From an uncultured Lachnospiraceae bacterium (lineage in GTDB: Bacteria; Bacillota; Clostridia; Lachnospirales; Lachnospiraceae), in assembly GCA_902781895.1 (NCBI GenBank), contig CACZLA010000007.1, positions 33,704 through 97,703 of the forward strand: a stretch of DNA of 64,000 bases, in the 5' to 3' direction. Position 1 is the first letter of the stretch, and each line of letters begins with the position of its first letter. Of the stretch, positions 16,730 to 58,423 are shown piece by piece. A program made the position numbers and the translations under genes. The notes beneath the pieces were generated by a model. That model saw nothing but the letters and a program-made list of their open reading frames with translations. It was not told where the DNA came from and did no database searches.

Positions 16730-16739
16730 ATTTTATCCT

Positions 16740-18545
16740 CTACCATCTGACCACTATATCAAGTACACCGGCCTTTATTTTGTCATTTTTTTCCAGTTTT
16801 CGTTGTCCGTTTATTCTTTCTCCATTCAGGAAGGTTCCATTCTTCGACTCAAGATCCATTATGAAGAAATCCATTCCATCATATGCCAAAACAAAATGCT
16901 GGTTTGACATACTCGGTTCATCAATTTTCAGATCACTTATTTCCGAACTTCCGACTATCAAACTACCGTCAACATTTATATGTATCTCTTTAGTAATACT
17001 ATCTCCGCTTATTACATCAAGTATTATCGGGATTCCGATATTTGTATTATTATATATAGGACCTTCTCTTAATGAGTTTTGATTGAAGCTCTCTTTTTTC
17101 TTAACTCTTGTTACGTGTTTTCTTTTCCTAACTATGATTGCTATCACTATAGTTATTATTAAAACAAATATTACTATAAGGATTATGACGATGATTTTCT
17201 TTGTTGAACTTTCGGAGTCACCAGACTTGACGGGAGGCTTTGTTGAATTACCGGGTTTTCCCGTCGTTACACCTCCACCTTCAGCATCTCCTCCGGTTGC
17301 ATTTCCTGGTGTTCCAACTTCTTCTATATCATCAGGCTCTTCATACATCTTATTTCCCATAAGACTTATATTAACCTTAAATGTTTCCGGCTCATTTGAG
17401 CTAGTATTAAAATTAAATGCCATCTCATATACTGCATTTTCACGGTCCGGATCCAGATCAAACTCAGCTATCTTACATTCAGTTAGATGCTTATATAATT
17501 CTGTTACGCTGGTATCTGAAACATCTACAGTCTTTCCGTCTGTTGTGCTCTCAGCCAATGGTCTTGGACCGGTTTCGGAATTATCTCCTGCATCGATGAA
17601 ATACATAGGTGTTTCATATATGGTAAGACGACCCTTAAGACTGGCAGTCATACTAGTTTCAATCTCTCCATCAGTAACCGCTATGATAACGCTTCTGGTA
17701 TCATCATCAGTAAAGCCATCCAGATACTCACCCACATTGATTAAAGACTTGTTGAAGTTTGTAGAATCGTTATCAAAACTTATTTCATCAAGTCTGTCCT
17801 TCAGTCTATCCTTTATAGATCTTACAGGTTTTTCTGATTCGTCAACTCCTTGTTCATCAAAATCATTTTCTACATCCATCTGTTCAGCTGTATCTGAAGC
17901 ATTAGCATATGCAACCGTCTCTGAGCCATCCAATACACCATCTTTATATGTGGTAATTATATAGATACTATCATTCGTGAGTAATTCATTCTCATGAATA
18001 CTAATTATCTGTTCTTTTATTTTATCCCACTTTTCCTTTGAAATAGAACTTTTAGTATCTATTACAAAGCATATATTATTTTTTCCTATTTCTGACCACT
18101 TTGCTACAGGACTCTGAAGAGCAAGAGGATTACCATCTAAATCACATGAAACATCCAGATTTTCTGCATCTGAGTAGAAAAATACTCTTAATGTATCACC
18201 TATCTCCTTAGAGACTTCGACGCTATTAGTTACTGTTTTGGGTTTTGCGATTACTTTCCCTGCATCACTGGATCCTTTAGTGTCTTTGCCTTTCTGTGTT
18301 TTAGCCTGATTGTTTTGCTCTTTTGGGGCGGCTGTAGTGGTTTCTGTGGTAGCCTCTGTGGAAGGTGTTATAGTCTGATTATCTCCACCTTCATCAATTC
18401 CCTGCTCGTCAAAATTATACTCTGCCGTTGCCGGCTCTTCATCCCTCACCACATTTCCCATGGCATAGCAAACCGAAGTAAAGGCAAAGCAGCTTGCCAA
18501 AAACAAAACTAATATTATTAAGTTTTTGATACATCTATTCTTCAT
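16740..18545 (-). CDS. Secreted-type VWA domain, TM, cytosolic FHA protein (paralogue 2)
   Basis: This 601-residue protein matches the downstream neighbour closely in the N-terminal half: signal peptide, NFDEQGIDEGG motif, VWA domain with the same altered MIDAS loop VIDTKSSIS, and intact AVTDG. It has an insert inside the VWA region that repeats the acidic motif (ENDFDEQGVDES), as if the N-terminal segment had been copied inward. The C-terminal FHA is drifted: VGSSEISDLKI in place of GRS, SNQHFV in place of SRxH, SKNGTFL kept. Loss of the conserved Arg suggests weak or no phosphopeptide binding. It may be a specialised or decaying copy. Confidence 0.9.
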   Translation of the reverse strand: MKNRCIKNLIILVLFLASCFAFTSVCYAMGNVVRDEEPATAEYNFDEQGIDEGGDNQTITPSTEATTETTTAAPKEQNNQAKTQKGKDTKGSSDAGKVIAKPKTVTNSVEVSKEIGDTLRVFFYSDAENLDVSCDLDGNPLALQSPVAKWSEIGKNNICFVIDTKSSISKEKWDKIKEQIISIHENELLTNDSIYIITTYKDGVLDGSETVAYANASDTAEQMDVENDFDEQGVDESEKPVRSIKDRLKDRLDEISFDNDSTNFNKSLINVGEYLDGFTDDDTRSVIIAVTDGEIETSMTASLKGRLTIYETPMYFIDAGDNSETGPRPLAESTTDGKTVDVSDTSVTELYKHLTECKIAEFDLDPDRENAVYEMAFNFNTSSNEPETFKVNISLMGNKMYEEPDDIEEVGTPGNATGGDAEGGGVTTGKPGNSTKPPVKSGDSESSTKKIIVIILIVIFVLIITIVIAIIVRKRKHVTRVKKKESFNQNSLREGPIYNNTNIGIPIILDVISGDSITKEIHINVDGSLIVGSSEISDLKIDEPSMSNQHFVLAYDGMDFFIMDLESKNGTFLNGERINGQRKLEKNDKIKAGVLDIVVRW

Positions 18546-37831: not shown

Positions 37832-40800
37832 CTATCCAACCTCTTCTATCTCAAATAATACTTTATATTCCTTATGCCCGTCCTGCTCGTCCCAGCCTGT
37901 CATAAGTCTGTCGGCGACATCCTCATATTTGTCATCCTTGCAGCCTACACAGAGAACATAGAAGCTGTCCGAATATCTGCAGACAACATCATTTTTCTTC
38001 AGATTTACGATAAGATAATCTTCAAAGCTGTCCTGAATCTCATCCGGAATATCTCCGCCGTCTTCCCTTTCCAGGGTAAATCTGAGGAAGCCCGTGTTCG
38101 TATTGCTCTGCTTGTCATTACGATTCAGGAACTTATATACAACCTGAAGCTTATCGAAGCTTACAAGATATGCACCCTTTCCTTCGTTTCTTTCGCCGAT
38201 GATCTGCTTTATCTGTTTCAGATTATTCTTTTCTTTTCCGGCTGACTCCTGTTCAACCTCTCCACCGCTCTTCTGGTAGAAAGAATAACCATGCTTTCCA
38301 TTTTGCTTTACTACATAAAGTGCTTTGTCTGCCTTCTTAGAAAGCTCTTCAAATTCTGTTCCCTCCGACGGAACCCTAACGGCACCTATGGATACTCCGA
38401 GAGGTATGTTCATATCCTCTCCCATATATTCCTTTGCCGAAACAACCATTTCCCTGTTTAAGAATTTGGTCAGCTTATCAACCTCCTGTTCATCTATAGT
38501 ATTCTTCAGGAAGCCGATAAATTCGTCACCACCTATACGACCTGCTATATCGTCCTTATGCATACCCTCTTTTATCAGCTCTGCAAATCTTATCAGGATG
38601 CGGTCTCCCATATCATGTCCATAGATATCATTTACCAGCTTAAAGCTGTCAAGGTCTATCATCATGAGAATTCCGGTCTCAGAATCGCAAGTTGTTTCCA
38701 GAGTTCTGTGAGAACCGGTCTTATTCAGAAGTCCCGTCATTGCATCAGTGGTAACCTCTTTCTGAAGACCTCTTACACTTGCAGTTCTTTTTCTTATCTC
38801 AACAAACAGCCAGCCAATATAAAGGACAACCAGAGCAAGGACCAATACCAGATATACACGGAAATAGGTCTTCTCGTACATCATGGCTTCCTTCCTTACT
38901 TTAACTACAACCTCATTCTCCGGCTCCCAGGTCAGTTCATCCAGAATACTGATATGGAATCTATAATCACCCTTTGGAAGATCCGTAAATACAAGAGGTG
39001 AAATAGTACTCTGTGTACACAGATTTCCTTCATCCGGAAAACCTTCCAGATGGTAATAGACCAAAGGATTTGACATAGCATAATTATTGATGGCTATATT
39101 AAACTCTATACGTCCATTGGTTGCGGGGATTACAAACTCTCCGTTTTTCTCGGTTACCTCTCCCTCGGGATAGGTTATGGATTTGAGATGAGGCTGAAAT
39201 GGTTTCACATCCCTTTCATAGTCTTTGGTAGTTATTTTCCTTACACCATCTATACAGCAAAGATACAGGTTATCTCCATCAAGTACGTTCCAGGAGTTTG
39301 CCGTAAATGTAGATGAAAAGCCCCATCTGTAATCCAGAAGAGTGAAAGTATAATCATTCTCATCACTAAGCAGATCGTTTTCGTCTACTATATACATTCC
39401 TGCACTTGATGTAATCCAGCATTTTCCGTCATCGGATATCTTAATATCGTAATTATTCGAATATGGAAAGTTCTTTAAATACTTCAGCTCAGTACCGTTA
39501 TCATAGTAGATTGAATTACTGGTAACATAAAGATAGCCTCCGGTACATTTTACAATCCTGAGGATAACAGAGGAACTCATGCCTTCTGCCTCGCCTATAT
39601 GTCCTACCACCTTATCATCTTTTATAATATAGATACCGTCTCCGTCTGAACCGGCAAGTATAGCTCCATCCTCACGTTCAACCATGGAAAGGATATATCT
39701 GTTATTAAGTCCATCCTTTTCTCCTATGGTTGAAACGATCTTTCCATCCTTTATATATGTAAGTCCTATGTTACTTGCAACAAGGATCCTGCCATCCGAA
39801 AGCTCCATAGCCGCCCTGCACCTGCCACCGAGATTCACTCCGGCTTCTTCATTGAAATAAGTAACATTTTCATTCTTATCTACACATATCAGACCCTTTT
39901 CCGCATAAGTACTGAACCAGATATTTCCTTTGGAATCAGCAAATATATTTCTGATACGGTTTTTATCCAGAATACTTGAATAGCTCTTTTTTATCTCTCT
40001 GTTAGTTTTGAGATTTATAACCTGCAGGCCGTTGTCAGAGCCTATGAACAGTTCATCTCCGACCTTTTCCACAGAATTAACGATGCCTGTATCAAGTCCC
40101 GCCCTTCTTGTCAGATTGGCAAAAGGGGTCTTTGAATATTTCATAAGACCGTGCTTCGTTGAAGCAAACCATATATTTCCCTGGTAATCTATACAAACAT
40201 CACTGACTGCACCATTAAAGTCAGAGTGCGACATATCTATGGATTTATAGGTTTTTGCATCCAGAAATCCGAGACCGTTTTCACAGCATACGAAAAATCC
40301 GCCATCATCCGGGCTGTATTCCATTACATTAAAGAAGTTGAAATCGGGGATCTCAAAATTACCGACGTATTTCAGCTTGTCATTTTTTATTTCATATCTG
40401 TCTACTATGTTTGTACTGGTTCCGCAAAGAATCTCTTTTCCGGAATATGACACCTCTCTGTAATAAACGCTCTCGTCTCTGTTAAATGTTACTGAATCCA
40501 TGAGCATGTCATTTTTAATAAGAAACAGAGTTCCGCCATTTGTTATTCCGACTACTCCGCCATCCTCTAAAGTCTCAAAGGACTGTACGTATTTTATATC
40601 ATCCCATTCGCTGTAGGTTTTAACCACACCATCAGGTGATATCTTCGAAACGGAAAGAACCGTACCTATATACATATTTCCGTCAATATCCTCGCCTATC
40701 TCTCTGATGGAGTTGGCCTCGAGTCCATTTGATGTATCATAAAATGTTTTCTCTCCGGTTACGGTATCGTAGCAGCAGGCTCCGCTCTCGTTTGTACCTA

Positions 40801-45777: not shown

Positions 45778-47268
45778 CTATGATAAAATTCCCAGACTGG
45801 TTGATATGATAAACAGAATTATTGTATACACCAGCAGCAAAATGGCATTTCTGATATGAACCTTCTTTTCAGCACTAAGTATGGCAACGAATTCCCTGAT
45901 AAGGGCATTTATATGAAAATACCATTTTGTCTTACTTCCTACACCCGAAGCTTTGAATCCATTATTCTCGGCTATAACTCCACTTCTCAGCACATGATAA
46001 TCCGTTGTGGAATACGCGATATTAATAAGTGTATCTTCACTCATCCCTCTATCCCCCAGATTCTTTAGAATCTGCTCATGGGATAATTTCATATTTTCAT
46101 CTGTATTTACCGACTTATCATCTACCAGAATAAAGGCCGGATCAACACCCTTTTCCATCAGATACTTCTTTATCGCCTCGCCTTCGGATATGGGTTCATC
46201 ACTTCCCTGTCCCCCGGACGCTACAAAGATTATATCATTTCCTGTTTCTTTCTTCTGCTTCTCAGCAAACCATACAGCCCTGTCTGCCCTTCCGGCAAGA
46301 AGAGGAGTTAACTCACCATTACTCTTGAGACCACATCCGAGAATAATTATATAATCCTTATTACGTCTTGGAACATATTTTCCGGCACGTTCCGCACAGA
46401 AAATAGTACTGACCAGAATACACTCCAGATAACAAAGAATAGCATAAAAGAAAACCTCCACGTGATTTGCAAGGCGCCACCTGAGTATACTTACCAGATG
46501 TTCTTGCTTGATAAGAGATTCAATATAAGGCCCGATCAGAGTCATTAGAATCAGTACCAGCGCAAGCAATATGCAAAGGCAGTTCTCCGGACTGAAACCT
46601 TCCTTTTTCAGCAAGACCACATTGCTCAGCATGAGATAGATCGAGAATAAAATGACCACGGGAAATGCAAATATGGCAAATAATATAAAAATAGAATAGA
46701 ATGCAAAATGATAAATATCCAGAGTATAGTATGACGTACCCTGACGTATGGAAATAGCCACAAACAAGGCAGCACATGCAAACAGGAAAAGCGCAACTCC
46801 GATATTACCAACCAGGGAATATGAATACATACTCTTCTTTGCTATATTTCGACATCTGACAACTCTATGGATAAATGCCAGCACAAAGAACAGAGCCGTT
46901 TCTATTCCGATAATATAAAACCGGTTTGTGGTTCCGATAAAACCTCCCATGGTAATGATCCCACTTTGATGAACATACAAAGTAGTCGAATGAGTAAGAT
47001 ACTTTCCGCCTTTACCATATACGGTAACTTCAACATCCGACTCGCCCTCCCGAAGTCCGCGGAATACCACTCTTCCCGTTCCATCGTCTATCTCGGTTTT
47101 CAATACCTCTATGACACTATCATCCTGAACCTCAACCACCGTCTCCGTAGATCCATCCAGCAAAATAGGAAACTCATGAATAAAGGTTCTGCCCATCATA
47201 AGATAATCAAAGGCAACTATGATGACAATTATTAAAATTGTTAGTACTGCCTGATTCTTTTTTGACAC
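45778..47268 (-). CDS. Membrane protein with C-terminal YdcF/DUF218 domain
   Basis: I place the start at a GTG at 47268, ten bases after GAAGGG. The in-frame ATG at 47307 lies inside the arm of a perfect inverted repeat and has no ribosome site. The 496-residue product has an N-terminal helix, a beta-rich outside domain (about 30-110), about five membrane helices (about 115-320) and a C-terminal DUF218 domain (about 325-455): IILGCGLKSNGELT, AGRADRAVWFAE, ASGGQGSDEPISEGEA and a final helix. DUF218 proteins such as YdcF and SanA are linked to envelope functions; the reaction is unknown. Confidence 0.86.
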   Translation of the reverse strand: MSKKNQAVLTILIIVIIVAFDYLMMGRTFIHEFPILLDGSTETVVEVQDDSVIEVLKTEIDDGTGRVVFRGLREGESDVEVTVYGKGGKYLTHSTTLYVHQSGIITMGGFIGTTNRFYIIGIETALFFVLAFIHRVVRCRNIAKKSMYSYSLVGNIGVALFLFACAALFVAISIRQGTSYYTLDIYHFAFYSIFILFAIFAFPVVILFSIYLMLSNVVLLKKEGFSPENCLCILLALVLILMTLIGPYIESLIKQEHLVSILRWRLANHVEVFFYAILCYLECILVSTIFCAERAGKYVPRRNKDYIIILGCGLKSNGELTPLLAGRADRAVWFAEKQKKETGNDIIFVASGGQGSDEPISEGEAIKKYLMEKGVDPAFILVDDKSVNTDENMKLSHEQILKNLGDRGMSEDTLINIAYSTTDYHVLRSGVIAENNGFKASGVGSKTKWYFHINALIREFVAILSAEKKVHIRNAILLLVYTIILFIISTSLGILS

Positions 47269-47285
47269 GCTGCTTTTCCCTTCAC

Positions 47286-47333
47286 TAAAAAATGATAATA
47301 TACGCATTTTAACATTAAAATGCGTATATTATC
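47286..47333 (-). terminator. Perfect 19+19 bp inverted repeat with T-run
   Basis: Arms 47294-47312 and 47315-47333 are exact reverse complements with a 2-base loop, followed on the minus strand by ATTTTTT. It comes 15 bp after the stop of the cell-wall-binding gene, fitting an A/T-rich terminator that ends the riboswitch operon. It contains the ATG that would otherwise be annotated as the start of the next gene. Confidence 0.7.
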
Positions 47334-47348
47334 AAATACTAATCTTCT

Positions 47349-49100
47349 TTAGTAACAAACACCATCCGCACCGATCCACCAGCCTTCAACATACTGATTT
47401 GTTACCATATAACCTGATGCGTCAAAATAATACCAGTATCCGTCCACCTTAAGCCAGCTGCTCTGAGGCCACCAGCCTGAGACATCCTCAACCCACCAAC
47501 CTGTGGAGTTGGACTTCCATGTCAGGAAATATCTTTCATCCCATGAACCATCAGCATTGAACCAATAACCGTTATAGTATTCATTGGATGCCATATAACC
47601 TGAAGCGTTGAAATAGTACCAGATACCATCTATCTTCTGCCACTGATTTACAGGATACCATCCGGCAGAATCCTCAACCCACCAGCCGATAGCATTCTGC
47701 TTCCAGGAGAGAATACCGGGATAAGTCTGGAGACCGTTTTCGTCATACCATTTTCCGTTTATCCATTCACTCTTATAGGTTTTTCCGTCCTTTTTACTGC
47801 CCTTATCCTCAGCTACATCCTTTCCGATACGGAAATTCTTTGAAATCTTTCCTGTATATTTTCCGACTCCGATAAATGTTATGGTAGCAATTCCCTCATT
47901 GATGTTGTTTTCAATCTTGGTATTATAATCAACACCTTCCGTAAGCTTTTTTGAACCCATATAAAGATCATAATCCGGCCATACTTCCTCACCGGTATAC
48001 TTCATGTCAGTAACACCGGTGACAGTTGCATCCTTGATATCGATCAGCTCCGACTTATTAGCAGGAGGCTCTGATGAATAAGGTACATAAATACAAATAC
48101 TATTCCATCCGGAATTATATTCCACATATGAATCCGCCTTTGCCTGACGCCCATTTACAACTACCTTAAATGCTGATATAGCTGATAATGAGACAAATTC
48201 ATTTTCTTTTGTTACACAGCTTGCCCATTTAAAGTATGTCTGATCATCAAGTTCAATACTAAATGCTACGTAGTATTTTTTATCTGAGGCTATTTTGTCT
48301 AAGCCTTCATCAATACCCCAGAATCCCATGCCACTTTCCTCATCATAAACATAATAGCAAAGTCCGGCATAAAACATACATATTCCATCGGTAGTGCATC
48401 CGGACGACTCATTTATTCTTGTATCTATATCTCCTTCTTTTGCACCTATCTTAAAATCTACATACTCCGGATCATAACCAAGATTTACCTCGGAAATAGT
48501 TTTAGTCTCTATTTTTTCAACAGGTTTACTTCCTTTTTTTACTGTTGCCGGAACATATAAATAAATGTAATCAATAACATTTTCATCATCCTCTGAAAAC
48601 AGTTCCATATAGCAATGATTTGTATAAGTGTCATTTACTTTAATATAGAGTTTATCCGTTGCTATATCGTCCAGGTTTAAAATACCCATATCACTATCTC
48701 TGTATTTTTGAACTATATCGCTATAAAACTCCCAGCTGCTATCGATATCAATACATATTCTGTAATAATATGGTCTTGCCTCCTGAACTCTGTACTTATC
48801 GCTTGTGGCATAGTTCATGACACCACTGGGCATTCTGAATGCCAGTCCACTGTTTTCAACATCTACAGAGATTCCACCACTGGCCCCTGTGATCCTGGTA
48901 TTACCCTCTTCATTAATTCTGCTATCTACGTCCAATTCCAGTTCATCTGTGTTCAGATTGATAGAAGCAGTATCAATCGTCAGACTGATATTCCTCAGTT
49001 TTGCTTTAGCGTGAACATCCATCTTTGGTATCTGAACAAGTGAAATGATCAAAACAGCTGAAATGATAATTCCAAGCATCCTTCTTTTAATACTTTTCAA
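47349..49100 (-). CDS. Secreted cell-wall-binding protein, last gene of the riboswitch operon
   Basis: The start is a TTG at 49100, eight bases after GGGGAGG; the in-frame GTG at 49109 overlaps that site. The 583-residue protein has a signal peptide (about 1-31), about 320 residues of beta-rich sequence without a recognised family, a short Ig-like piece (YTGEEVWPDYDLYMGSKKL, about 365-420) and seven W-Y wall-binding repeats at the C-terminus (about 445-583). It should sit on the cell surface. It is 44 bp after the unknown coiled-coil gene and is probably under the c-di-GMP riboswitch. Confidence 0.85.
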   Translation of the reverse strand: MKSIKRRMLGIIISAVLIISLVQIPKMDVHAKAKLRNISLTIDTASINLNTDELELDVDSRINEEGNTRITGASGGISVDVENSGLAFRMPSGVMNYATSDKYRVQEARPYYYRICIDIDSSWEFYSDIVQKYRDSDMGILNLDDIATDKLYIKVNDTYTNHCYMELFSEDDENVIDYIYLYVPATVKKGSKPVEKIETKTISEVNLGYDPEYVDFKIGAKEGDIDTRINESSGCTTDGICMFYAGLCYYVYDEESGMGFWGIDEGLDKIASDKKYYVAFSIELDDQTYFKWASCVTKENEFVSLSAISAFKVVVNGRQAKADSYVEYNSGWNSICIYVPYSSEPPANKSELIDIKDATVTGVTDMKYTGEEVWPDYDLYMGSKKLTEGVDYNTKIENNINEGIATITFIGVGKYTGKISKNFRIGKDVAEDKGSKKDGKTYKSEWINGKWYDENGLQTYPGILSWKQNAIGWWVEDSAGWYPVNQWQKIDGIWYYFNASGYMASNEYYNGYWFNADGSWDERYFLTWKSNSTGWWVEDVSGWWPQSSWLKVDGYWYYFDASGYMVTNQYVEGWWIGADGVCY

Positions 49101-49144
49101 AAAACACACCTCCCCTTTGTTATTTATTGTTACTATTTTCTTCT

Positions 49145-51079
49145 CTAATGTGACAACGCCCGTGTAGGCAGATGATTAGGTAGATATCCTATAACAGACT
49201 TTTTCTTATCTGCATCATAATAGAAATATACCCTTATCATATTGGCATCTTTTCCCTTGCCATATTTAATATGCATATCCATCAGCACATCCCGGCCATC
49301 AACTCTAAGCAAATACTTATCTTTATGTATTTCCATCGCACCCTGACCGCTGCCGGCCGGCTCAACCTTGTAACCCGAATTCTCAGGATCATACTCACGA
49401 GCAGCTTCGTAGTTTATAGCAGTTCCACCCTCGTTTCTGTACCTGGTATAACCTGCCAGATAATGGATCATCATACATAGTCTATGCCAGTCTATATTCC
49501 TGTTATCGTCCTTTAGTGACTTTACTGCATCCGGATGAAGCTCCATCACATCAGAGTAGTAGGTTTCGATCCATTTTACCAATTCATCCTTCTTCTCTCT
49601 GGTAACATTCGGAAGATTTAACAGAGGCTGATATCGTTCTTTTTCACTATTGATCAGGCCTCTTCGAATGATCTCGTCATTCAGCACCTTGCTCTCATAC
49701 TTTCTAATATCATTCTTTAGTTTCTCGTTGTCAACGGATAAAGCCTTATTTTCTTCTATACTCTTAAACAAGTCACTTGCCAGTTTTGTATGGTTTTTAT
49801 CCAGTTTTTTATTCTCAGACTCCAGGCTGTCAATCTTTCTCTGACGACCTTCTATATCAGTTCTAAGATCACTTATCTCAATCTTCAGCTTAGAAATCTC
49901 TTTCTCGTATGCATCAGAAAGTTCTTTTGTATCTAAGTCCTTTGTATTATTTATTTTATCAAGCTCCCACCAGGAAGGCTTAAATGTAAAATCCAGGAAA
50001 TCATAATTCTTCCTGCAGGGCTCCTTATGTGCTCGGGTCCTTATCTCCTCTAGAAGCTCTTCGTTTTCTCCTTCGTAGTAGTCCGAATCATATTCACTGT
50101 GGTTAGTTGTTCTGTAAAATATCAACTGACCTTCATTTGCAACCTCGGCAAGCTCCTCCGACTTCATAGCCTGGTTAAACAGTTTTGCCGAGCTTCCCTC
50201 CCATACTACTACATGAGCAAATCCAAGTAAACTCTGAGTCTTCCTATCCACCTCGCTGCTATACTTCTTATAATAGTCCCCGGGCACAAACAGAACCGGC
50301 ATCTGTCGTTTATCTGATATTATCAGATCACTATATAATCGCTCACAAGCCTCCCCGGATTTTCCGTTTAAGATAACAGGTTTTTTCGCGAAGGCATATT
50401 CTTTTCCTATTCCAAACTCAGTTATGATCACATCATCATCAAAGAAAATATCTCTGACAAATCCCGGACGGAATCCGGATGCATCTTCAGAATTTGATTC
50501 CGGTTCCCTGCAGGCTTCTCGAATACCCAGAGCAACCGATTCGGATAATTTATTTACAAAGAACTCAGTGATAAATGTCCGTCCCTGAACACCACTGTTT
50601 TCATTTCCGTTATCCGGCTCAGTGAGACAAGCCAGCCAACTGCATTTGTCATTAATATAGGCTGTTTCAAAGTCAATAAAATTAAACCCGTTTATATTTT
50701 TGGAATCCTCTAAAGAGAAGTCTTTATAGTTTTCCGGTTCAGGATAATCATCTCTCAAAAATACAGTTTCAGGATATTTTTCAAAAACCTCTTCCCCAAG
50801 ACGATTGCGGAACCAGCGCATGATATACAGTATCGTTTTCTTGTAACAGTCCTCAAGAGAAATACTCCGGGTCGGATGAATCTCAAGAAAAGCCTGATAA
50901 GTATAATACTGCTTGAAAAATGCAAGCTTGCTGGCCTTGGCAAGTACAACAGCTTCAGTCTGGGTAGCAGCCGTCTCTGCAGTCGTTTCATTATTCAGTT
51001 TTGGATTTGCTTTAGATTTCTCCTTATCCGCTTTTCGCATCATTTTGGAGAAATTCTTTTTATTATACCTGACTGTCAT
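49145..51079 (-). CDS. Unknown coiled-coil protein of the TIR-SPFH operon, 644 aa
   Basis: I do not recognise the family. The N-terminus is basic (1-30), then a mixed alpha/beta domain (about 50-350) with hydrophobic strands such as MPVLFVPGDYY and GFAHVVVWEGS, a coiled coil (about 385-480; repeated Leu/Lys/Glu heptads), and a C-terminal domain (about 490-644). The last 60 residues (VDGRDVLMDMHI, RVYFYYDADKK) faintly resemble small toxin-like folds of the RelE/ParE kind, but this is weak. No signal peptide or membrane helix is present, so it is cytosolic. It is 30 bp after the TIR gene. The ribosome site is weak (GTGGG). Confidence 0.75.
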   Translation of the reverse strand: MTVRYNKKNFSKMMRKADKEKSKANPKLNNETTAETAATQTEAVVLAKASKLAFFKQYYTYQAFLEIHPTRSISLEDCYKKTILYIMRWFRNRLGEEVFEKYPETVFLRDDYPEPENYKDFSLEDSKNINGFNFIDFETAYINDKCSWLACLTEPDNGNENSGVQGRTFITEFFVNKLSESVALGIREACREPESNSEDASGFRPGFVRDIFFDDDVIITEFGIGKEYAFAKKPVILNGKSGEACERLYSDLIISDKRQMPVLFVPGDYYKKYSSEVDRKTQSLLGFAHVVVWEGSSAKLFNQAMKSEELAEVANEGQLIFYRTTNHSEYDSDYYEGENEELLEEIRTRAHKEPCRKNYDFLDFTFKPSWWELDKINNTKDLDTKELSDAYEKEISKLKIEISDLRTDIEGRQRKIDSLESENKKLDKNHTKLASDLFKSIEENKALSVDNEKLKNDIRKYESKVLNDEIIRRGLINSEKERYQPLLNLPNVTREKKDELVKWIETYYSDVMELHPDAVKSLKDDNRNIDWHRLCMMIHYLAGYTRYRNEGGTAINYEAAREYDPENSGYKVEPAGSGQGAMEIHKDKYLLRVDGRDVLMDMHIKYGKGKDANMIRVYFYYDADKKKSVIGYLPNHLPTRALSH

Positions 51080-51109
51080 GATCTACCCACATTCTATCTT
51101 CAAAACAGA

Positions 51110-53179
51110 TTATAGATTGTTATACTTTCTTTCAAATACAACTACTACTTGTCCTCCACCTTCACTTAAATCTCTCATAGTAGTATGTAATTTCCATCCA
51201 TCTGCCGAATACTTATCAATTACAAATTTAAGCATCTCATTATCTACGCCACCTGATGGCTTATCAAGTACTATCTGAACATCATATTCATATTCCTTAT
51301 TCTCATAGTTATCAGCTGCTACATTTGTTTCCACCTGCTCAACAGACTGGGCTTCTTCTGCTTCTGTAGAATCAGCAAATAATTCAGGAACAGAAGCTTT
51401 ATACTTATCCAGAATAGATTGGACTCTTGATATTGCAGCACTATGTGTCATTGTTTGATTAACGGCTTTTTCAAGATATGAATATGAATTACGAGTAACC
51501 TGAGTATCATCTCCCAAGTATGTCTGAAGTGCGGATAATCTGGAAAAACAGTTATTACAACACTTTACTGAAGTATTATGAGGGATAAAGGTAACAACTC
51601 CTTCGGCGGTTCTGCATATAGCACACATTCCGTTCTGCTGTGAAAAAGCATCCTCCTGTATCTCACACTGTTGTGCCAGATAAGCAGAATCTCTATATTC
51701 TCCTAACGATTTAAAAATAAGAAGTGCCTCGTGATAATCCAGTTCTGTTCTGGCATTATTCATTTTTTCATAGGCTTTGTTATACTCATTTTCAGAGTGA
51801 ATCGCATTGTACTTTTCAACTAATTCAGCCAAATATTCATCAATCATTTCAAAACCACTGTTCTCTTGTAGTACTGAAATCATTCTGACGTAGTCTTCTT
51901 CACTTGAAGCTGCCGATTCTTCCTGGTGAATTCTCTGAACTAAATTCTCTATACTATTAATTACATATGTATCCAGTTCGCCTCTTAGTTTTTCGTCTCC
52001 ATACTTATATGCATTTTTGAACAGATAGTTTTTGGATAGAACATCCGAGGTACCTGCTAATTCATTTATCTTTTTATATTTCTTCTCAGCCAGAAGTTTT
52101 CCAATATATGCATTTGCGCTTGTTGAATCAATATCAAGAGCTTTATCACAATAAATCGTCGCATTTTCCCAGTTGCCGGCCTCAAGAAAAAGAAATGCTC
52201 TGTTAAGCAGTGTATCAACATCCGTATTTGATCCTATTGAAACACCAGATCCCTCTTTTTTAGTTTTTCCTTCTGTTTCAGTCTTCTTATTAACAACTTT
52301 TTTTATTCCGTGAATAATATCATTCACAAAGCCAATCTTACTCATGTCCTGAGCCTGCAGGAATGAGAATTCTTCCGGAAGGCCATAAGGATCCATATCC
52401 CTGTATGCAGGAATAAGAATTTTGCTGGGATCATCTTTAATGATTGAAAGGAATCTGCTCCACTCATTCTTAACCCATGGAGCCACAAAGTATTCCGGTT
52501 TAGTACCAATAACAAGCATAACCTTTGCACTGTTTAGGGCAGCAAAAATATATGGTTCATATGCTGTACCAAGTTTATTCTCCAATGTAATGGCCGCAAA
52601 AAAAACTTTAAAACCTTCCTTAGTAAGCTGATGATATATATCATTTGCAATAACCGAATCCCTGGTTCTTTGTCCATTTTCATCCGTTTCTTTATAACAG
52701 ATAAAAACGTCGAAGGGTTCCTCTTTATTGGATATCTCAAGTATTCCCTTCTGTATTACATCTATATTTTTAGCCTCTTCCTCATACACCCACTTCTGCA
52801 TCGAATCAGCATTCTCTATAGCAGCCTTATAATCTTCATCAGCATAGATTGACTTGTACTGAGCTCTGTTAACGGTTGGAACCCGCTTATGAGTTGTCGG
52901 ATCCTCAACATACTCAATTCCATAACGGCATAATACCAATGACCAATATGCTTCAGCATCTGTTGAATCTTCATTTAGTATCTGCTCATATATAGTCATA
53001 GCCTTATCATAGTCATTATTCCTTCGAAAATGATTGGCTCTGTCATACAGGTTTTCTCTTTTATCAGTATCCAGCTTTGGCAGTGTCTGAGTAGTACCAC
53101 AGTATGCACACTCACAAACTGTCATACCTTCTAATATCTGCAGTTCTCCACCACACATCTTGCATCTGAATATAGCCAT
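51110..53179 (-). CDS. Zinc-ribbon, TPR, TIR-domain protein
   Basis: I place the start at the ATG at 53179 (MAIFRC), preceded by AGGGGGGG. The 689-residue protein has a zinc ribbon (Cys6, Cys9, Cys24, Cys27), TPR-like helices (41-90), a TIR domain (about 156-262) and further TPR-like repeats (about 310-500), then a Cys-pair segment (CAICRT and CCNNC) and a DUF4177-like C-terminus (YSADGWKLH). In the TIR domain DVFICYKETD, GFKVFFAA and APWVKNEW match the fold, and Glu208 in AYEPYIFAAL aligns with the catalytic Glu of NAD-cleaving TIRs. Many bacterial TIRs destroy NAD or make signal nucleotides in phage defence; activity here is inferred. Confidence 0.9.
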   Translation of the reverse strand: MAIFRCKMCGGELQILEGMTVCECAYCGTTQTLPKLDTDKRENLYDRANHFRRNNDYDKAMTIYEQILNEDSTDAEAYWSLVLCRYGIEYVEDPTTHKRVPTVNRAQYKSIYADEDYKAAIENADSMQKWVYEEEAKNIDVIQKGILEISNKEEPFDVFICYKETDENGQRTRDSVIANDIYHQLTKEGFKVFFAAITLENKLGTAYEPYIFAALNSAKVMLVIGTKPEYFVAPWVKNEWSRFLSIIKDDPSKILIPAYRDMDPYGLPEEFSFLQAQDMSKIGFVNDIIHGIKKVVNKKTETEGKTKKEGSGVSIGSNTDVDTLLNRAFLFLEAGNWENATIYCDKALDIDSTSANAYIGKLLAEKKYKKINELAGTSDVLSKNYLFKNAYKYGDEKLRGELDTYVINSIENLVQRIHQEESAASSEEDYVRMISVLQENSGFEMIDEYLAELVEKYNAIHSENEYNKAYEKMNNARTELDYHEALLIFKSLGEYRDSAYLAQQCEIQEDAFSQQNGMCAICRTAEGVVTFIPHNTSVKCCNNCFSRLSALQTYLGDDTQVTRNSYSYLEKAVNQTMTHSAAISRVQSILDKYKASVPELFADSTEAEEAQSVEQVETNVAADNYENKEYEYDVQIVLDKPSGGVDNEMLKFVIDKYSADGWKLHTTMRDLSEGGGQVVVVFERKYNNL

Positions 53180-53212
53180 TTTGTCCCCCCCTAATATCAT
53201 TTCATTCTTATC

Positions 53213-53923
53213 TTAAACCATTCTCTTCAGGTTTTTACATTCATTATTTCTTCTATCAATTAATTGTATTAATTCATCTGATATACCTTTTGCCGAACGA
53301 ATATCATTCCCCTTCTGATATACATCCGTCAGTTCATTCATTTTTGCAAATATAGCACCTTCAATATCACTTAATCTGGGATCGGAAACCATATCACTGT
53401 AACGAATCTTATCGTACACCGACTGTGCTATCTGCTTCTTCTCTGCCGTATCAGCTATAGCTGTCAACTCCCGAGCCCTGTCGGTAAGCACACGGAAATT
53501 ATATGTCTTTTGGTTTAATTCAATATTAGCAGCCTGTGTTGTTTCTCCAACCGTTTTAGCTGTTAATAAGAAAAGAATAAAAATGAATAATAATGCATAA
53601 ACAATAATTATTTTAAGCCAATTTTGTATTCCCGGAATGGCCATACATACCAATCCGGCAGTTGCCAGAATGAATAGCTCTGTGGTACTGATATATAATA
53701 ATGGTGTATTCAGAATTCTCTTTTCCTTTTTCTTTTCATCAAGTGCAATATAAGAGAATAAGAAGTGCAATATAAAAGCCACCATGATAAAACCATATAC
53801 AACCCAAAAACTCTTTGAGCCATCATCAAATCCATTTTTTCTTATCGGAGCCAGAAAACAAATAAGATTAAAAAGGATCAATGCCCCAACCCAAAATAGA
53901 GAGTATTTTATAAACTTTGCCAT
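53213..53923 (-). CDS. Four-helix membrane protein of the TIR-SPFH operon
   Basis: The 236-residue protein has four hydrophobic helices (about 6-27, 39-62, 77-97 and 101-122) and a cytosolic helical C-terminus (about 130-236) rich in Asp, Arg and Lys. No family is recognised. GAGG lies 9 bases before the ATG. It sits 22 bp after the SPFH gene and 33 bp before the TIR gene, so it may anchor or recruit those products to the membrane. Confidence 0.82.
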   Translation of the reverse strand: MAKFIKYSLFWVGALILFNLICFLAPIRKNGFDDGSKSFWVVYGFIMVAFILHFLFSYIALDEKKKEKRILNTPLLYISTTELFILATAGLVCMAIPGIQNWLKIIIVYALLFIFILFLLTAKTVGETTQAANIELNQKTYNFRVLTDRARELTAIADTAEKKQIAQSVYDKIRYSDMVSDPRLSDIEGAIFAKMNELTDVYQKGNDIRSAKGISDELIQLIDRRNNECKNLKRMV

Positions 53924-53945
53924 ATCTGATTTCCTCTTTTACTAA

Positions 53946-55403
53946 TTAAAGTTTTGTGCCACACTCAAGACAGAATTTTCCGCCTAATGGAATTTCGGTT
54001 CCACAGTTCGGGCACTTATTTATCATTAATTGTCCGCACTCCATACAGAATTTTCCTTTTGGTGTTTTCTTTCCACATGCCGGACATATTATTTCATTTG
54101 ATTCCGGCTGCTCTATTTTAGTTCCGCATTCTAAACAGAATTTTGCATTTGCCGGTAATGTATTACCGCAATTCGGACATTTCGTAACCTGTTCTGTCCC
54201 TTGTGTTTGATCAGTTTCTGCTCCTGTATTTGATGATATCGGATTGATATTTTTCATCATCTCACCAACCTGTGGTGCCATGGCATTCATCGCTGCCATG
54301 CCAACCCCCAATCCGAGCATATCACCCATTACTGAATTTCCGCCACCACCTGCGATGGCCGGTCCCATATTTCCGATTCCCTCTGCGTAAGCCTTCTGAA
54401 CATCTGCCTGTAATACATCCTTCTGATTGTATCCCTTAGCCTGCATTACAGATGCCTCCGCAAATCCAGCCATCTGTGCAGCCTGAGCATCTGCCTGTGC
54501 CTGGATAATCTGTCTTTCAGCTTCTCTCTTGGCAATTTCTGTCTCTGTGGTCTGTTCCTCAAGAATAGCCCCTCTCTGTGCAGCTTTTATCTTCGCCTCA
54601 GCTTCTGCTTCAGCTGTCATATATGAAGCTCTGCTCTCAGCCTGTGTGGTTTTTACTTCTGCTTCAGCCTGAGCCATGCGTTTCTGGAGAGTAATTGTAT
54701 GAAGTTCGCGAAGTCGCTTAAAATTCGGATCTGATTCCGGAAGCACAATATTTGTTAAGTAGAACTGTGGAATTGTTAATCCATACTCTTCAAATCCCGG
54801 AACAATTCTGTTCTTGAGCACTTCCGATAACTCTCCCAGGTGCTCATCAACTTCTACTATGTCAATATACTGCTGTTTGATTGCCGCAGAAAGATTCGAC
54901 TTAACCTCTGTTGATATTAAAGGTCTGAAGGATGTCTGCAATGATTTTGAAAAGGCTGATTTTTCAGCATCCCATGCTATTCCCGACATGGTACCAACCA
55001 ACTTGATCAAAAGCTTTCTTCCATCAGAAACCGCCAGATTCATCTCGCCGGATGCACCTATTTCTACAGGAACACCAAGTGTTGGCTCTACAAATCTGAC
55101 TTTAGAATCTGTTCCCCATTTCACAGCCATCTGAACTGTTTTATTGATGAAGTATACCTGACAATGGAACACACTTACGCCGGTTACTTTATTCACCAGT
55201 GAAGTTAATATCGGTATATTATACGCATCAAGTCTATATCTTCCCGGACCAAATGTATCCGCTGCCTGTCCATTTGCGAAAAAAATAGCCTCCTGACTTT
55301 CATTAACTATCAATTCCGTCATGTTATTAAAATCTTCATTCGGATACTTCCAGATAAATGTCGAGTTATCCCCCTCATATTTAATCAGTTCTGATAATGC
55401 CAT
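53946..55403 (-). CDS. SPFH/Band-7 domain protein with three C-terminal zinc ribbons
   Basis: The 485-residue protein has an SPFH domain (about 25-240), a helical region rich in Ala, Glu and Gln (about 240-345) and a Gly/Met stretch. Three zinc ribbons end it: CPNCGNTLPANAKFCLECG, CPACGKKTPKGKFCMECG and CPNCGTEIPLGGKFCLECG. The family is often labelled virion core protein-like, and SPFH proteins usually form ring or cage assemblies on membranes. It lacks a clear N-terminal membrane helix. It is the first gene behind the c-di-GMP riboswitch, with GGGAGG 9 bases before the ATG. Confidence 0.9.
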   Translation of the reverse strand: MALSELIKYEGDNSTFIWKYPNEDFNNMTELIVNESQEAIFFANGQAADTFGPGRYRLDAYNIPILTSLVNKVTGVSVFHCQVYFINKTVQMAVKWGTDSKVRFVEPTLGVPVEIGASGEMNLAVSDGRKLLIKLVGTMSGIAWDAEKSAFSKSLQTSFRPLISTEVKSNLSAAIKQQYIDIVEVDEHLGELSEVLKNRIVPGFEEYGLTIPQFYLTNIVLPESDPNFKRLRELHTITLQKRMAQAEAEVKTTQAESRASYMTAEAEAEAKIKAAQRGAILEEQTTETEIAKREAERQIIQAQADAQAAQMAGFAEASVMQAKGYNQKDVLQADVQKAYAEGIGNMGPAIAGGGGNSVMGDMLGLGVGMAAMNAMAPQVGEMMKNINPISSNTGAETDQTQGTEQVTKCPNCGNTLPANAKFCLECGTKIEQPESNEIICPACGKKTPKGKFCMECGQLMINKCPNCGTEIPLGGKFCLECGTKL

Positions 55404-55478
55404 AGTAGTAAACCTCCCGTGTTTTCAATATAATAATTATGGTCTTATTGCTAAACAACTCTCCGTGAACATTTCACA

Positions 55479-55518
55479 AAAAAAGCACCAAAACAGACCA
55501 ATTAAGGACCGTTTTGGA
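55479..55518 (-). terminator. Intrinsic terminator of the c-di-GMP riboswitch
   Basis: On the minus strand CCAAAACGGTCC pairs with GGTCTGTTTTGG (one mismatch, one G-U) around a 6-base loop, followed by a run of seven T. It lies between the aptamer and the SPFH start codon, in the place of a riboswitch expression platform. Confidence 0.85.
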
Positions 55519-55537
55519 TGCTTATACAATACTATTT

Positions 55538-55612
55538 GCAACTGGCTACCATCGAATACTTCTTAGGTCCTGCAGCTTTGCGTCGCAGGGTTTCCCCTGT
55601 TTTGCCGGTATA
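55538..55612 (-). promoter_or_regulatory. Class I cyclic-di-GMP riboswitch (GEMM-I) aptamer
   Basis: The minus strand carries the conserved blocks of the GEMM-I aptamer in order: CCGGCAAAAC, a stem capped by a GAAA tetraloop (CAGGG-GAAA-CCCTG), GCGACGCAAAGC (55575-55584 core), GGACCTAAG as tetraloop-receptor side, and GATGGTAGCCAGTTGC (55538-55552). The base just before CAAA is G, aligned with G20 of the Vc2 riboswitch. That base marks c-di-GMP binders, while A there marks cGAMP binders. The P1 stem is short and A/T-rich (4+4 bp around a loop). Whether ligand turns genes on or off cannot be read from the sequence. Confidence 0.92.
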
Positions 55613-55620
55613 CAATAATA

Positions 55621-55649
55621 ATTATATTCAGAACGCTAAATTAAGTCAA
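55621..55649 (-). promoter_or_regulatory. Consensus promoter driving the riboswitch operon
   Basis: On the minus strand TTGACT (55644-55649) and a perfect TATAAT (55621-55626) stand 17 bases apart, with the aptamer starting about 8 bases after the -10. It lies in the 50 bp after the SbcC stop, so the operon is transcribed on its own. Confidence 0.9.
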
Positions 55650-55660
55650 TAAACAAACAT

Positions 55661-58423
55661 TTAAATGACTATCTCCACCTTGCTGCCACCACTTTTTTCT
55701 TTGGTAACTACTATCTGCTTATCAATCTTATCCTTGAGTTCTGCAACATGAGATATTATTCCAACAAGTCTGTTTCCTTCAGCCAATCCAGTAAGCGCTT
55801 TGTATGCCATATCAAGTGTATCAATGTCTAGTGAACCGAATCCTTCATCAACATACATTGTATCAACTATAATACCACCCGCAGAAGCCTGAACCTCATC
55901 TGACAAACCAAGAGCAAGCGAAAGTGAGGCGAGAAATGATTCTCCACCGGACAGGGATTTTACACTACGATTCGAACCATTATAATGGTCAATAACTTCC
56001 ATCTCCAGTCCTCCTTGTCCCTGAGAACTACCTTTCTTATCTCTGATAAGTTCATACTGACCACCGGACATGGTAAAGAGTCTCAGATTTGCTCTTCTGA
56101 TTATCCTGTCAAAATAAGTAGTCTGAATATAAGTCTCGAGCATGATTTTTTCTTTACCTTTTAGTTTTCCATTTGCTGTATCAGAAAGAGCTTCTACCCA
56201 TTGAAGCTTCTTTTCAATCTCAATCTTTTTTTCTGCTTTATCAATTATATTTGCTCTTATACCATCATTGGTGCTGTATCGTTTATCTACTTCTACTTTT
56301 AATTTATCGATTTCAGTCCTTGCTACTTTTTGTTTTGTCTGCTTTTCAGTTTCAAGTTCCAAATCTGGAGCTTCTGATTTATTAATGCTCTCTTCCAGAG
56401 TTTTTATACTCGTTTCAAGCTTATTTATTTTCTCTTTTTGATCATCATATGATTTCTTTGCATCATCATAAGATTTTTGCAGACTTACAGATTTTGAGAC
56501 TAAACTATCACGTTCATCAATAGCATCTTGTTTAGTTTCAAACTGAAGTATCTTCTTTATGATTTCTAATTGACTTTCTTTCTCTGTTTTACTGGAATTT
56601 TTTGCAGCTACATCACTCTTTATTTCTTCTATCTTATTTCCGAGTAATGCAATGGATTCTTCATACTTCGGAAGTTGCTTCTCAATTTCTTTTTTCCTGT
56701 CTATGTTCTTCTGTTCCTTATCAATCCTAAGAATTAAATCATTAAGTTTCTGAGTATTATCTTCACGAACCACAGTTATCTTATCAGCTGCTTCAGTCAG
56801 ATTATCAGTCCCCAGTCTTTCATGTGTTTTCTTTTTTAAACTCTCCTCAACTGTTTCAAGAGAAGTCTTTTGGGTATTCGCATTTTCAGCACTTTTATCT
56901 CTTGTCTTTCTGGCTGTCTCAGCATTCTTCTTTGCCTGTTCCAATTCCTTCTCCGAAGGAATCTCCTCTGTCATGCATGCTTTATTCGGATGAGAGAGTG
57001 ATCCACAAACAGGGCATGGTTCTCCTTCAACAAGTCTGTCCGCGAGTATTCCGGCCTGACCGTCTCTAAACCTTTGTTCCTTTTTTTCGTATAATAGATT
57101 TAGTTTTCTAAACTCTTCATCATCTGATTTATAAACCTTTTGCACTTCAATTAATTCATCTCTTTTTTGTGAGCAATCATTAAGTTCATTAAAGATCTCA
57201 TCAATAACTTTTATATCATTTTCCAGCTTTACTTTATCGCTCTTCAGTTTTTCCAACTCAATTCCGGAATCCTTTATCGATAACAATTCGGTCTTTATTT
57301 TATCCTGTTCAGTATTATTCTTTTCTTTTTCATTTTCCTTTTCTCTGAGCTGGCTCGACTTGTTTTCTATTTCATTTTGAAGAGTCTTTATATCTGTTAT
57401 TAATTTATCTGCATCATCATATCGAGAAAGATCGTTATCTATTTTATTAGCTTTTTTCTCCAGCTCTGGTTTTTCTTTCAAAGCCATCTCGGCTTCTTTC
57501 ATGTTATTTTCGTATTCTTTAAGCAACGGTCTTTCTTCTATAAGCTGCTTTCTCGCCGCTTCGATTTGATCTTTTGATTCTTTTATTTTTGTTGCTATAC
57601 CAATTTTCGTATTTATCTCTGCTAATTCTTTGTCTATTTTCTGTAGTTCTTTTTCATAGCTATCTTTGGCTGAAATATCCTGTTCTAAAAGCTTATCCAG
57701 TAACTGAAGAACATCCTCAGTCGTCATTTCTCCAGCCTTAGCTTTTGTCACATCAATAGAAAGAACATCATCTTTATCAACCTGAATTCCTTCAACATAT
57801 TGATCAATACTTTTTTTCTCATCAGCAACTTGTCCGCTTACTTCTTTACGCTTTGCATCAAGTCTGATTTGCAACGTCTGATAATAATTGGTATGGAACA
57901 ACTCCCTGAATATTTTTATTCTTTCTACGGTATCAGCTAGAAGAAGCTTCAAAAAATCCCCCTGTGCAATCATCGATATTTGAGAAAATTGATCTTTATT
58001 AATTCCAAGAAGTTGAGTAATGGCTTTTGTAACATCATTTTTCTTTGTAATAACACGACCATCAGGGAAATGTAATTCTGCATTTGCAGATTCCGGCGTA
58101 AATCCCTCTCCTCTTTTTGCCGGACGCAAATATTCAGGATTACGCTTTATAGTGTACTGCTTACCTGCATGTTCAAATATCATCTCTACCTCAGTAGGAG
58201 TTTCCGGCATAGCATATTTGGATCTAAGCATAGAAACATCTCTGTTCTGACCACTGGCTTCTCCATACAGCACATAACAGATTGCATCAAAAATAGTGGT
58301 TTTCCCTGCACCGGTGTCACCCGTAATCAGATATAACCCTTTCTCCCCTAACTTTTCAAAATCTATTTCTGTATATCCAGCATATGGTCCAAAGCCTGTT
58401 AATTTTAGATTTAATGGTCTCAT
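55661..58423 (-). CDS. sbcC: Exonuclease SbcC, SMC-like ATPase subunit
   Basis: The 920-residue protein has Walker A GDTGAGKTTIFD, long coiled coils (about 180-420 and 510-740), a zinc-hook GEPCPVCGSLSHP, the signature LSGGESFLASLSLAL, and Walker B MYVDEGFGSLD. With SbcD it forms the Rad50/Mre11-type nuclease that cuts hairpins and blocked DNA ends. It starts 3 bp after sbcD ends. GGGAGG lies 8 bases before the ATG. Confidence 0.96.
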   Translation of the reverse strand: MRPLNLKLTGFGPYAGYTEIDFEKLGEKGLYLITGDTGAGKTTIFDAICYVLYGEASGQNRDVSMLRSKYAMPETPTEVEMIFEHAGKQYTIKRNPEYLRPAKRGEGFTPESANAELHFPDGRVITKKNDVTKAITQLLGINKDQFSQISMIAQGDFLKLLLADTVERIKIFRELFHTNYYQTLQIRLDAKRKEVSGQVADEKKSIDQYVEGIQVDKDDVLSIDVTKAKAGEMTTEDVLQLLDKLLEQDISAKDSYEKELQKIDKELAEINTKIGIATKIKESKDQIEAARKQLIEERPLLKEYENNMKEAEMALKEKPELEKKANKIDNDLSRYDDADKLITDIKTLQNEIENKSSQLREKENEKEKNNTEQDKIKTELLSIKDSGIELEKLKSDKVKLENDIKVIDEIFNELNDCSQKRDELIEVQKVYKSDDEEFRKLNLLYEKKEQRFRDGQAGILADRLVEGEPCPVCGSLSHPNKACMTEEIPSEKELEQAKKNAETARKTRDKSAENANTQKTSLETVEESLKKKTHERLGTDNLTEAADKITVVREDNTQKLNDLILRIDKEQKNIDRKKEIEKQLPKYEESIALLGNKIEEIKSDVAAKNSSKTEKESQLEIIKKILQFETKQDAIDERDSLVSKSVSLQKSYDDAKKSYDDQKEKINKLETSIKTLEESINKSEAPDLELETEKQTKQKVARTEIDKLKVEVDKRYSTNDGIRANIIDKAEKKIEIEKKLQWVEALSDTANGKLKGKEKIMLETYIQTTYFDRIIRRANLRLFTMSGGQYELIRDKKGSSQGQGGLEMEVIDHYNGSNRSVKSLSGGESFLASLSLALGLSDEVQASAGGIIVDTMYVDEGFGSLDIDTLDMAYKALTGLAEGNRLVGIISHVAELKDKIDKQIVVTKEKSGGSKVEIVI

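Follow-up and report, generated by a model that had tools for sequence, protein, structure and literature searches.

An SPFH/TIR operon behind a c-di-GMP-I riboswitch in an uncultured Lachnospiraceae bacterium and its recurrence within the genus

In a 64,000-nucleotide stretch of the genome of an uncultured Lachnospiraceae bacterium (GenBank assembly GCA_902781895.1, contig CACZLA010000007.1, forward-strand positions 33,704 to 97,703; hereafter the window), a class I riboswitch for cyclic di-GMP (c-di-GMP) precedes a five-gene operon encoding an SPFH protein, a partner protein with four predicted transmembrane segments (4-TM), a TIR-domain protein, a coiled-coil protein and a wall protein. The pairing of an SPFH/TIR operon with a c-di-GMP riboswitch recurs in the genus, a conclusion that is well supported. 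We further propose, with about even confidence, that the operon specifies a TIR surveillance unit docked at the envelope, organized on the plan of the YdjI/PspA system and expressed at low c-di-GMP. If true, c-di-GMP would govern a TIR module by way of a riboswitch and connect the choice between sessile and motile life with a possible response based on nicotinamide adenine dinucleotide (NAD). Full-text literature searches, which covered few subscription papers, yielded no description of SPFH-TIR operons or of TIR genes under c-di-GMP riboswitches. In the available portions of three related papers, band-7/zinc-ribbon genes stand beside pspA and 'Tir' denotes the CesT/Tir chaperone (PMC11237479), SPFH is named solely in the title of a reference (PMC7159879), and no passage matches the SPFH-TIR layout (PMC9092222).

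The leader and the genes of the operon

The operon runs on the reverse strand from position 55649 to 47293 in the order promoter, aptamer, terminator, SPFH, 4-TM, TIR, coiled-coil and wall-protein genes and closing palindrome (Table 1), and its leader sits entirely between sbcC and the SPFH gene. An earlier note, made from the letters of the window alone, had described a consensus promoter, a complete GEMM-I aptamer, a terminator ending in seven T and five closely spaced genes closed by a perfect palindrome, and each of these elements stood up. The promoter is the sole site of such quality in a consensus scan of positions 47250-55720, where promoter-like sites as a whole occur at chance level (33 found vs 28.9, standard deviation (SD) 5.7, in shuffles); inside the operon, the scan gave no site better than the leader promoter, and internal sites were at chance. 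The aptamer matches the Rfam covariance model RF01051 over its full length and above the gathering cut-off of 35 bits, and is one of seven such matches in this genome. The base ahead of CAAA, presumably the ligand-selecting position (G20 in Vc2 numbering), is G rather than A in 12 of 12 aligned aptamers, in line with the G read there by the earlier note. The terminator stem begins 11 nucleotides past the aptamer model and spans 55523 to 55483, with the seven T at its end. All five genes share the reverse strand and are separated by short gaps. A GGDEF gene in the same window had been put forward as a possible source of the ligand, but the genome contains 33 GGDEF stretches in all, so the nearness of this one to the operon carries little weight.

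Hydropathy predicts no transmembrane segment for either the SPFH or the TIR protein. A sequence search of PDB with the SPFH protein returned mostly zinc-ribbon matches, and the same search with the coiled-coil protein gave no match. The N-terminal zinc ribbon of the TIR protein was assigned by eye from conserved Cys pairs, and its tail resembles DUF4177 below threshold (22.6 bits vs a cut-off of 25). The coiled-coil protein is similar to the PADLOC candidate HEC-07 in its C-terminal part, best over model positions 338-552 of 553.

The SPFH protein and its neighbor recall YdjI of Bacillus subtilis, which is described, in the part of the source available, as an SPFH protein with a zinc-finger motif and no membrane anchor that depends on the membrane partners encoded in its operon, YdjG/H, to bring PspA to the membrane (PMC8581546). 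Like YdjI, the window protein is a Band_7_1 SPFH protein with a zinc-binding C-terminus, no anchor and a membrane partner in the operon; unlike in the YdjI-YdjGH-PspA system, a TIR protein stands where PspA would be, and the 4-TM partner belongs to no Pfam family. A PF13421 match in B. subtilis among our control genomes is a candidate for YdjI itself. The membrane link suggested by the earlier note is thus plausible: the SPFH protein has no predicted helix of its own, but the adjoining gene encodes a 4-TM protein, much as YdjI needs YdjG/H.

Recurrence of the riboswitch and of the gene set

We searched 61 genomes of the same genus, several of them incomplete, and found the TIR family (E < 1e-100) in nine: G000, which contains the window, G002, G005, G015, G023, G024, G043, G045 and G046. 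All nine have an SPFH homolog close to their TIR genes, and a c-di-GMP-I riboswitch lies ahead of SPFH in four (G000, G002, G015 and G045), so the comparison of operon heads in relatives came out in favor of the association. With 55 aptamers in approximately 27 Mb of sequence over these nine genomes, far less than one riboswitch would be expected by chance ahead of nine operons.

None of the four SPFH aptamers has its nearest relative among the other three; riboswitches of other genes are closer to each of them, and this holds also for G000 and G002, between which the SPFH proteins are 82% identical and the aptamers 71%. Since the SPFH aptamers are not one another's closest relatives, the riboswitch appears to have been recruited repeatedly to the SPFH operon, as far as the little signal held by such short RNAs suggests. 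The same observation could be taken to mean that the riboswitch came along from elsewhere and plays no part in regulating the TIR gene. We regard such a chance position as highly improbable, because the aptamer relationships themselves argue for repeated recruitment, a promoter pattern lies directly upstream in three of the four SPFH leaders (in G015 it lies further upstream, by eye), and the window operon has no better promoter inside it. When 93 loci (1.49 Mb) were searched at E up to 1 with a model (R1) made from 12 aptamers, it matched only the four SPFH operons and two further G015 sites, all six of which belong to its training set. In G015 (locus L073), further c-di-GMP-I riboswitches at 1991-2083 and 16693-16772 flank the SPFH-TIR operon, and the one upstream shares 89% identity with the SPFH riboswitch of that genome.

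The heads of the operons are diverse. A small gene is placed between riboswitch and SPFH in G002 and G045, and that of G002 matches the helix-turn-helix (HTH) family HTH_17. A riboswitch followed by a similar small HTH_17-like gene was observed at L175, L201, L202, L069 and L068 (Pfam was run on two of the five, one of which fell below the cut-off), and at L201 this gene is followed by a gene run that includes an AAA ATPase. In G005, G043, G024 and G046, a divergent small open reading frame (ORF) of 62-83 residues, XRE-type HTH-like by eye, is found at the SPFH head together with an operator-like palindrome, TACTATATA(A/G)ATAGTA, 48-50 nucleotides ahead of SPFH. An FRG-domain protein is encoded at L075:7970-8962, between the 4-TM and TIR genes.

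Beyond the genus, the SPFH-4TM-TIR set is frequent in gut Clostridia. A scan of genome_contigs with the N-terminal part of the TIR protein gave at least 549 confirmed of at least 595 stretches, from which 78 loci were kept, some sharing one genome. By title, the kept loci are mainly from metagenome-assembled genomes of Lachnospiraceae, Oscillospiraceae and other Clostridia, among the matches listed; this limit also applies to the counts of SPFH and 4-TM genes that follow. The TIR gene was recognized in 76 of the 78 loci and SPFH in 47 of those 76. When the window and the genus loci are included, SPFH occurs in 57 of 87 TIR loci; in 52 of these it precedes a TIR gene, and in five it is found solely downstream. 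The 4-TM family, whose helix count comes from the window protein alone, is present in 54 of the 87 loci and adjoins SPFH directly in 49.

Several results weigh against a fixed association of riboswitch, SPFH and TIR. At the gathering cut-off, G005, G023, G024, G043 and G046 have no RF01051 match ahead of SPFH, and model R1 detected no riboswitch in any of the 78 kept loci from other genomes. RF01051 occurs somewhere in all nine TIR-carrying genomes of the genus, so the gap at five operons does not reflect a missing RNA class; it was wholly absent from 14 of 28 genomes searched. Control by c-di-GMP is therefore not essential to the module. The TIR gene of one riboswitch operon, in the one-contig genome G002, is broken in frame, being split into two overlapping frames (L069 9159-11235). 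Of the 29 kept loci without SPFH, 15 extend upstream by approximately 10 kb and the other 14 by a shorter distance, and the former indicate that the TIR protein also exists without SPFH.

Table 1 Features of the operon and of related loci (window positions unless a locus, L, is named; aa, amino acids; nt, nucleotides)
Feature	Position	Strand	Evidence or remark
Promoter TTGACT-17-TATAAT	55621..55649	(-)	11/12 consensus matches
c-di-GMP-I aptamer (RF01051)	55534..55616	(-)	60.3 bits, E 2.7e-9, model positions 1-87 of 87
Intrinsic terminator with run of 7 T	55478..55523	(-)	hairpin -20.9 kcal/mol
SPFH (Band_7_1) protein, C-terminal zinc ribbons, 485 aa	53946..55403	(-)	PF13421 5.2e-36, PF12773 1.2e-15
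4-TM partner, 236 aa, without Pfam family	53213..53923	(-)	four hydrophobic segments (hydropathy)
Zinc ribbon-TPR-TIR-TPR protein, 690 aa	51110..53182	(-)	PF13676 2.7e-10; alternative start 53200
Codon of E209, TIR Glu	52556..52558	(-)	invariant in alignments A2, A5, A6, A7
Coiled-coil protein, 644 aa	49145..51079	(-)	PADLOC HEC-07 model PDLC04161 1.4e-29, residues 412-641
Wall protein, choline-binding-type repeats, N-terminal hydrophobic segment	47349..49109	(-)	PF19127 6.4e-10, PF01473 3.5e-9
Operon-end palindrome, terminator-like	47293..47334	(-)	two perfect 20-nt arms, T tail on (-) strand
GGDEF domain in same window (context)	38294..38752	(-)	PF00990 7.5e-35
Alternative regulatory head (divergent XRE-like gene + palindrome)	L076, L075, L072, L077, upstream of SPFH
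Helix-less first TIR genes	window 51110-53182; L068:12793-14862; L073:8621-11044; L069:9159-10295

Expression platforms and the genes they precede

The expression platforms of the genus resemble that of the Cd1 riboswitch of the Clostridioides difficile flagellar operon, and on this analogy c-di-GMP probably represses the operon. In the part of the source available, Cd1 is an OFF-switch with the same GEMM-I aptamer, a terminator fully downstream of it and an antiterminator that uses the aptamer strand (PMC9262584). The window riboswitch differs in heading an SPFH/TIR operon and in an antiterminator without statistical support. Transcription from the vegetative promoter would first produce the leader with aptamer and terminator; with c-di-GMP bound, the aptamer would be folded, the terminator would form and the operon would be off, whereas at low c-di-GMP an antiterminator would pair with aptamer sequence and the operon would be transcribed.

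All four SPFH leaders have a terminator-like hairpin beyond the aptamer, although our filter picked only its inner part in G002. Among 50 genus leaders examined, out of the 55 aptamers, a hairpin passed the terminator filter in 40. The longest complementarities between terminator strand and aptamer, summed over these 40, came to 248 vs 190.8 (SD 7.0) and were reached in 0 of 500 shuffles, a result that is not an independent probability because the leaders are related. Taken singly, 12 of the 40 reach P <= 0.05, with matches of up to 11 nucleotides to the GUGACGC core. In the SPFH leader of G015, the terminator strand matches the aptamer core over eight nucleotides (P 0.01; P 0.004 by duplex energy).

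Repression is less evident in other leaders. Ten of the 50, including the SPFH leader of G045, have no terminator by the filter, 28 of the 40 show no significant complementarity of their own, and the putative antiterminator of the window is weak (six nucleotides, P 0.198; P 0.37 by duplex energy). For the window leader, the OFF assignment is consequently made by analogy of layout only. The lack of significance in the window would suit an ON switch, by which c-di-GMP induces the operon, and pili and adhesins are frequently induced by c-di-GMP. We consider induction doubtful, given that the terminator lies wholly past the aptamer, as in Cd1, and that terminator strands complement the aptamer across the genus.

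For 52 aptamer entries we noted which gene comes first downstream; G000:C39, at a contig end, and G046:C37 were left out. Three entries are SPFH operons. The other 49 (assigned by eye, with a Pfam check on ten proteins from the listed riboswitch loci and the G002 loci) include one without an ORF, seven type IV pilin-like genes, approximately eight genes whose wall proteins carry repeats of the choline-binding type, several that encode lipoproteins or proteins with a signal peptide, and three small HTH genes; about a dozen have no evident surface link or no assignment. At low c-di-GMP, the operon would presumably be switched on alongside these genes, including those for pilin-like and wall-binding proteins.

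Membership in such a regulon could also mean that the operon is an accessory of surface adhesion, in which the SPFH and TIR proteins help to position or assemble surface proteins and the TIR domain is a protein-interaction scaffold rather than an enzyme. The pilin-like and wall proteins behind the riboswitches fit this view, as does the last gene of the operon: the repeats of its wall protein share 71-73% identity with repeats in two proteins encoded behind riboswitches of this genome. The TPRs and zinc ribbons, moreover, belong to the interaction modules. It is nevertheless unlikely, because E209 of the TIR domain is invariant and because, among the loci of the genus and of G067 that were compared, the coiled-coil gene has no match and the wall gene has a single weak repeat match, at L069 and upstream of the riboswitch.

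TIR proteins, related systems and possible functions

A structure model of the TIR domain (residues 150-300; pLDDT 79.6, pTM 0.77) retrieved with Foldseek the TIR domains of L7-Tir, BtTir, AbTir, SARM1, PdTIR and TLR1. The intact catalytic Glu claimed by the earlier note corresponds to E209, the putative catalytic residue on sequence grounds, which is invariant in four alignments of 12, 30, 47 and 28 rows containing partly the same proteins. A fold search with the full-length model was discarded, its best 50 Foldseek rows being mainly TPR, other repeat or helical proteins and no TIR. Run against PDB sequences, the TIR profile retrieved designed repeat proteins, which look like chance matches, and a weak TLR match. 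The window protein is like AbTir, BtTir and ThsB of Thoeris in its TIR_2 domain, invariant Glu and Foldseek matches, but unlike them in its zinc ribbon-TPR-TIR layout and its SPFH and 4-TM partners. Against the Thoeris model ThcB4 it scored 21.4 bits, below the cut-off of 220, and none of the five operon proteins contains a ThsA-type effector domain at E up to 0.001.

We read the operon as an envelope-docked surveillance unit because its SPFH protein has a YdjI-like make-up, with the TIR protein as probable client. The 4-TM partner would anchor the zinc-ribbon SPFH protein, in the way that YdjG/H do for YdjI, and the SPFH protein would in turn gather the zinc ribbon-TPR-TIR protein at the membrane, where an envelope or surface cue could cause TIR clustering and, through E209, NAD+ cleavage or nucleotide signaling. 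Findings that speak against this proposal include the absence of PspA from the Pfam matches of the operon and the poor whole-protein TIR model (pLDDT 65.8). PspA is encoded elsewhere in the genome (G000:C57), and a second SPFH gene, at C36, lies beside a sub-cut-off PspA match.

In most relatives, the TIR protein carries a membrane helix of its own and a variable C-terminal part. Among 114 TIR proteins scoring at least 350, hydropathy predicts a helix after the TIR domain in 92 and exactly one in 87; several of the 22 helix-less proteins are truncated at contig ends. Among 82 single-helix proteins that continue for at least 40 residues past the helix, Lys plus Arg average 6.78 in the 15 residues preceding the helix vs 2.3 after it, and are higher before it in 77, which predicts the TIR domain inside and the C-terminus outside. 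Pfam analysis of 47 TIR proteins (that of the window and 46 from kept loci) found TIR_2 in all 47, DUF6273 in 34, RCC1 repeats in five and LRR_5 in two. The LRR_5 carriers by motif, L094:4617-7403 and L131:10004-12469, combine one predicted membrane helix with C-terminal BspA-type leucine-rich repeats, and L131 shows no SPFH inside the locus. DUF6273 is likened to C-type lectins in the accessible text of PMC10743442. A DUF6273-like motif follows the helix in all 24 helix-bearing proteins that have it; its presence in eight helix-less proteins counts against an outside location for every DUF6273. The scan of genus and G067 proteins detected DUF6273 only in L073:8621 and L070:7872; the remaining C-terminal parts mostly matched nothing in Pfam except TPRs.

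The C-terminal parts are less alike than the remainder between tandem TIR paralogs, whose 26 pairs average 76% identity in the first 300 residues vs 40% in the rest; the contrast is, for example, 91% vs 26% in G015, and a single pair (L153) is reversed. A helix is predicted in 14 of 18 genus TIR proteins. Those lacking it are the window protein, the broken one of G002 and the products of the leading TIR gene in the operons of G045 and G015; in these last two operons, two more TIR genes, both helix-bearing, follow on the same strand. A helix-less TIR thus comes first in 4/4 riboswitch operons and in 0/5 other genus operons, a pattern noticed post hoc and involving four proteins of which three are close relatives.

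These features permit a broader, more tentative interpretation, that SPFH-4TM-TIR modules form a bacterial receptor system, in which TIR arrays gathered by SPFH would act as reversed Toll-like receptors and would be c-di-GMP-controlled in one genus. In each receptor, a single membrane helix would join a conserved zinc ribbon-TPR-TIR part in the cytoplasm to an exchangeable one outside (C-type lectin-like, RCC1 or leucine-rich); the soluble first TIR of the riboswitch operons may be an adaptor to membrane TIRs, and repeated riboswitch placement in one genus might tie surface sensing or immunity to lifestyle. As in Toll-like receptors, one predicted helix joins TIR to a variable, sensor-like part in most relatives. 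Unlike in those receptors, the TIR domain is N-terminal and the variable part, most often DUF6273, C-terminal, and the window protein lacks both the helix and such a variable part. If the interpretation is correct, the wider gut-Clostridia family is a receptor-like TIR system with exchangeable far ends, through which the existence of Toll-like surface receptors in bacteria becomes directly testable.

A role in anti-phage abortive infection is somewhat more doubtful than the receptor interpretation. Here, the TIR protein would kill or arrest the cell by NAD+ loss, the SPFH and 4-TM proteins would sense membrane damage and the riboswitch would set the standing level. Consistent with such a role are the closeness of the TIR fold to NAD-consuming TIRs, the patchy occurrence of the family (9/61, with several genomes incomplete), the divergent repressor-like HTH head in four relatives and the resemblance of the fourth gene to HEC-07. 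However, the SPFH, 4-TM, TIR and wall proteins of the window have no PADLOC match, and the neighborhoods of TIR genes are not enriched in defense models. At 1e-20, 100 neighboring ORFs (of 110 drawn from 443 candidates) gave nine model rows under six system names with one member each, while 100 of 130 ORFs from genus loci gave 30 rows, the top of the best 25 having three members; this control is imperfect, as it covers one genus only and was chosen around riboswitches. The PD-T4-6 and mad models may, we guess, match ordinary kinase or ATPase genes. The TIR family had no match in phage or plasmid collections and appeared in viral contigs at one locus out of 128 pattern stretches, and a motif search of uncalibrated sensitivity found 0 diversity-generating retroelements near TIR genes. 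The defense module suggested by the earlier note is possible, yet gained no support from neighbors or from these collections. The probable OFF polarity, the alternative heads and the helix-bearing TIR arrays of relatives go beyond what that note described.

Elsewhere in the window, the gene at 59662-61719 has a sub-threshold match to the MXAN_6230/SCO0854 RING family (88.7 bits vs a cut-off of 600). Positions 2424-43271 hold a large FHA/kinase/phosphatase cluster, in which a Pfam scan of 26 large ORFs (of 28 listed) found nine FHA, two kinase, two PP2C, two VWA and four choline-binding matches.

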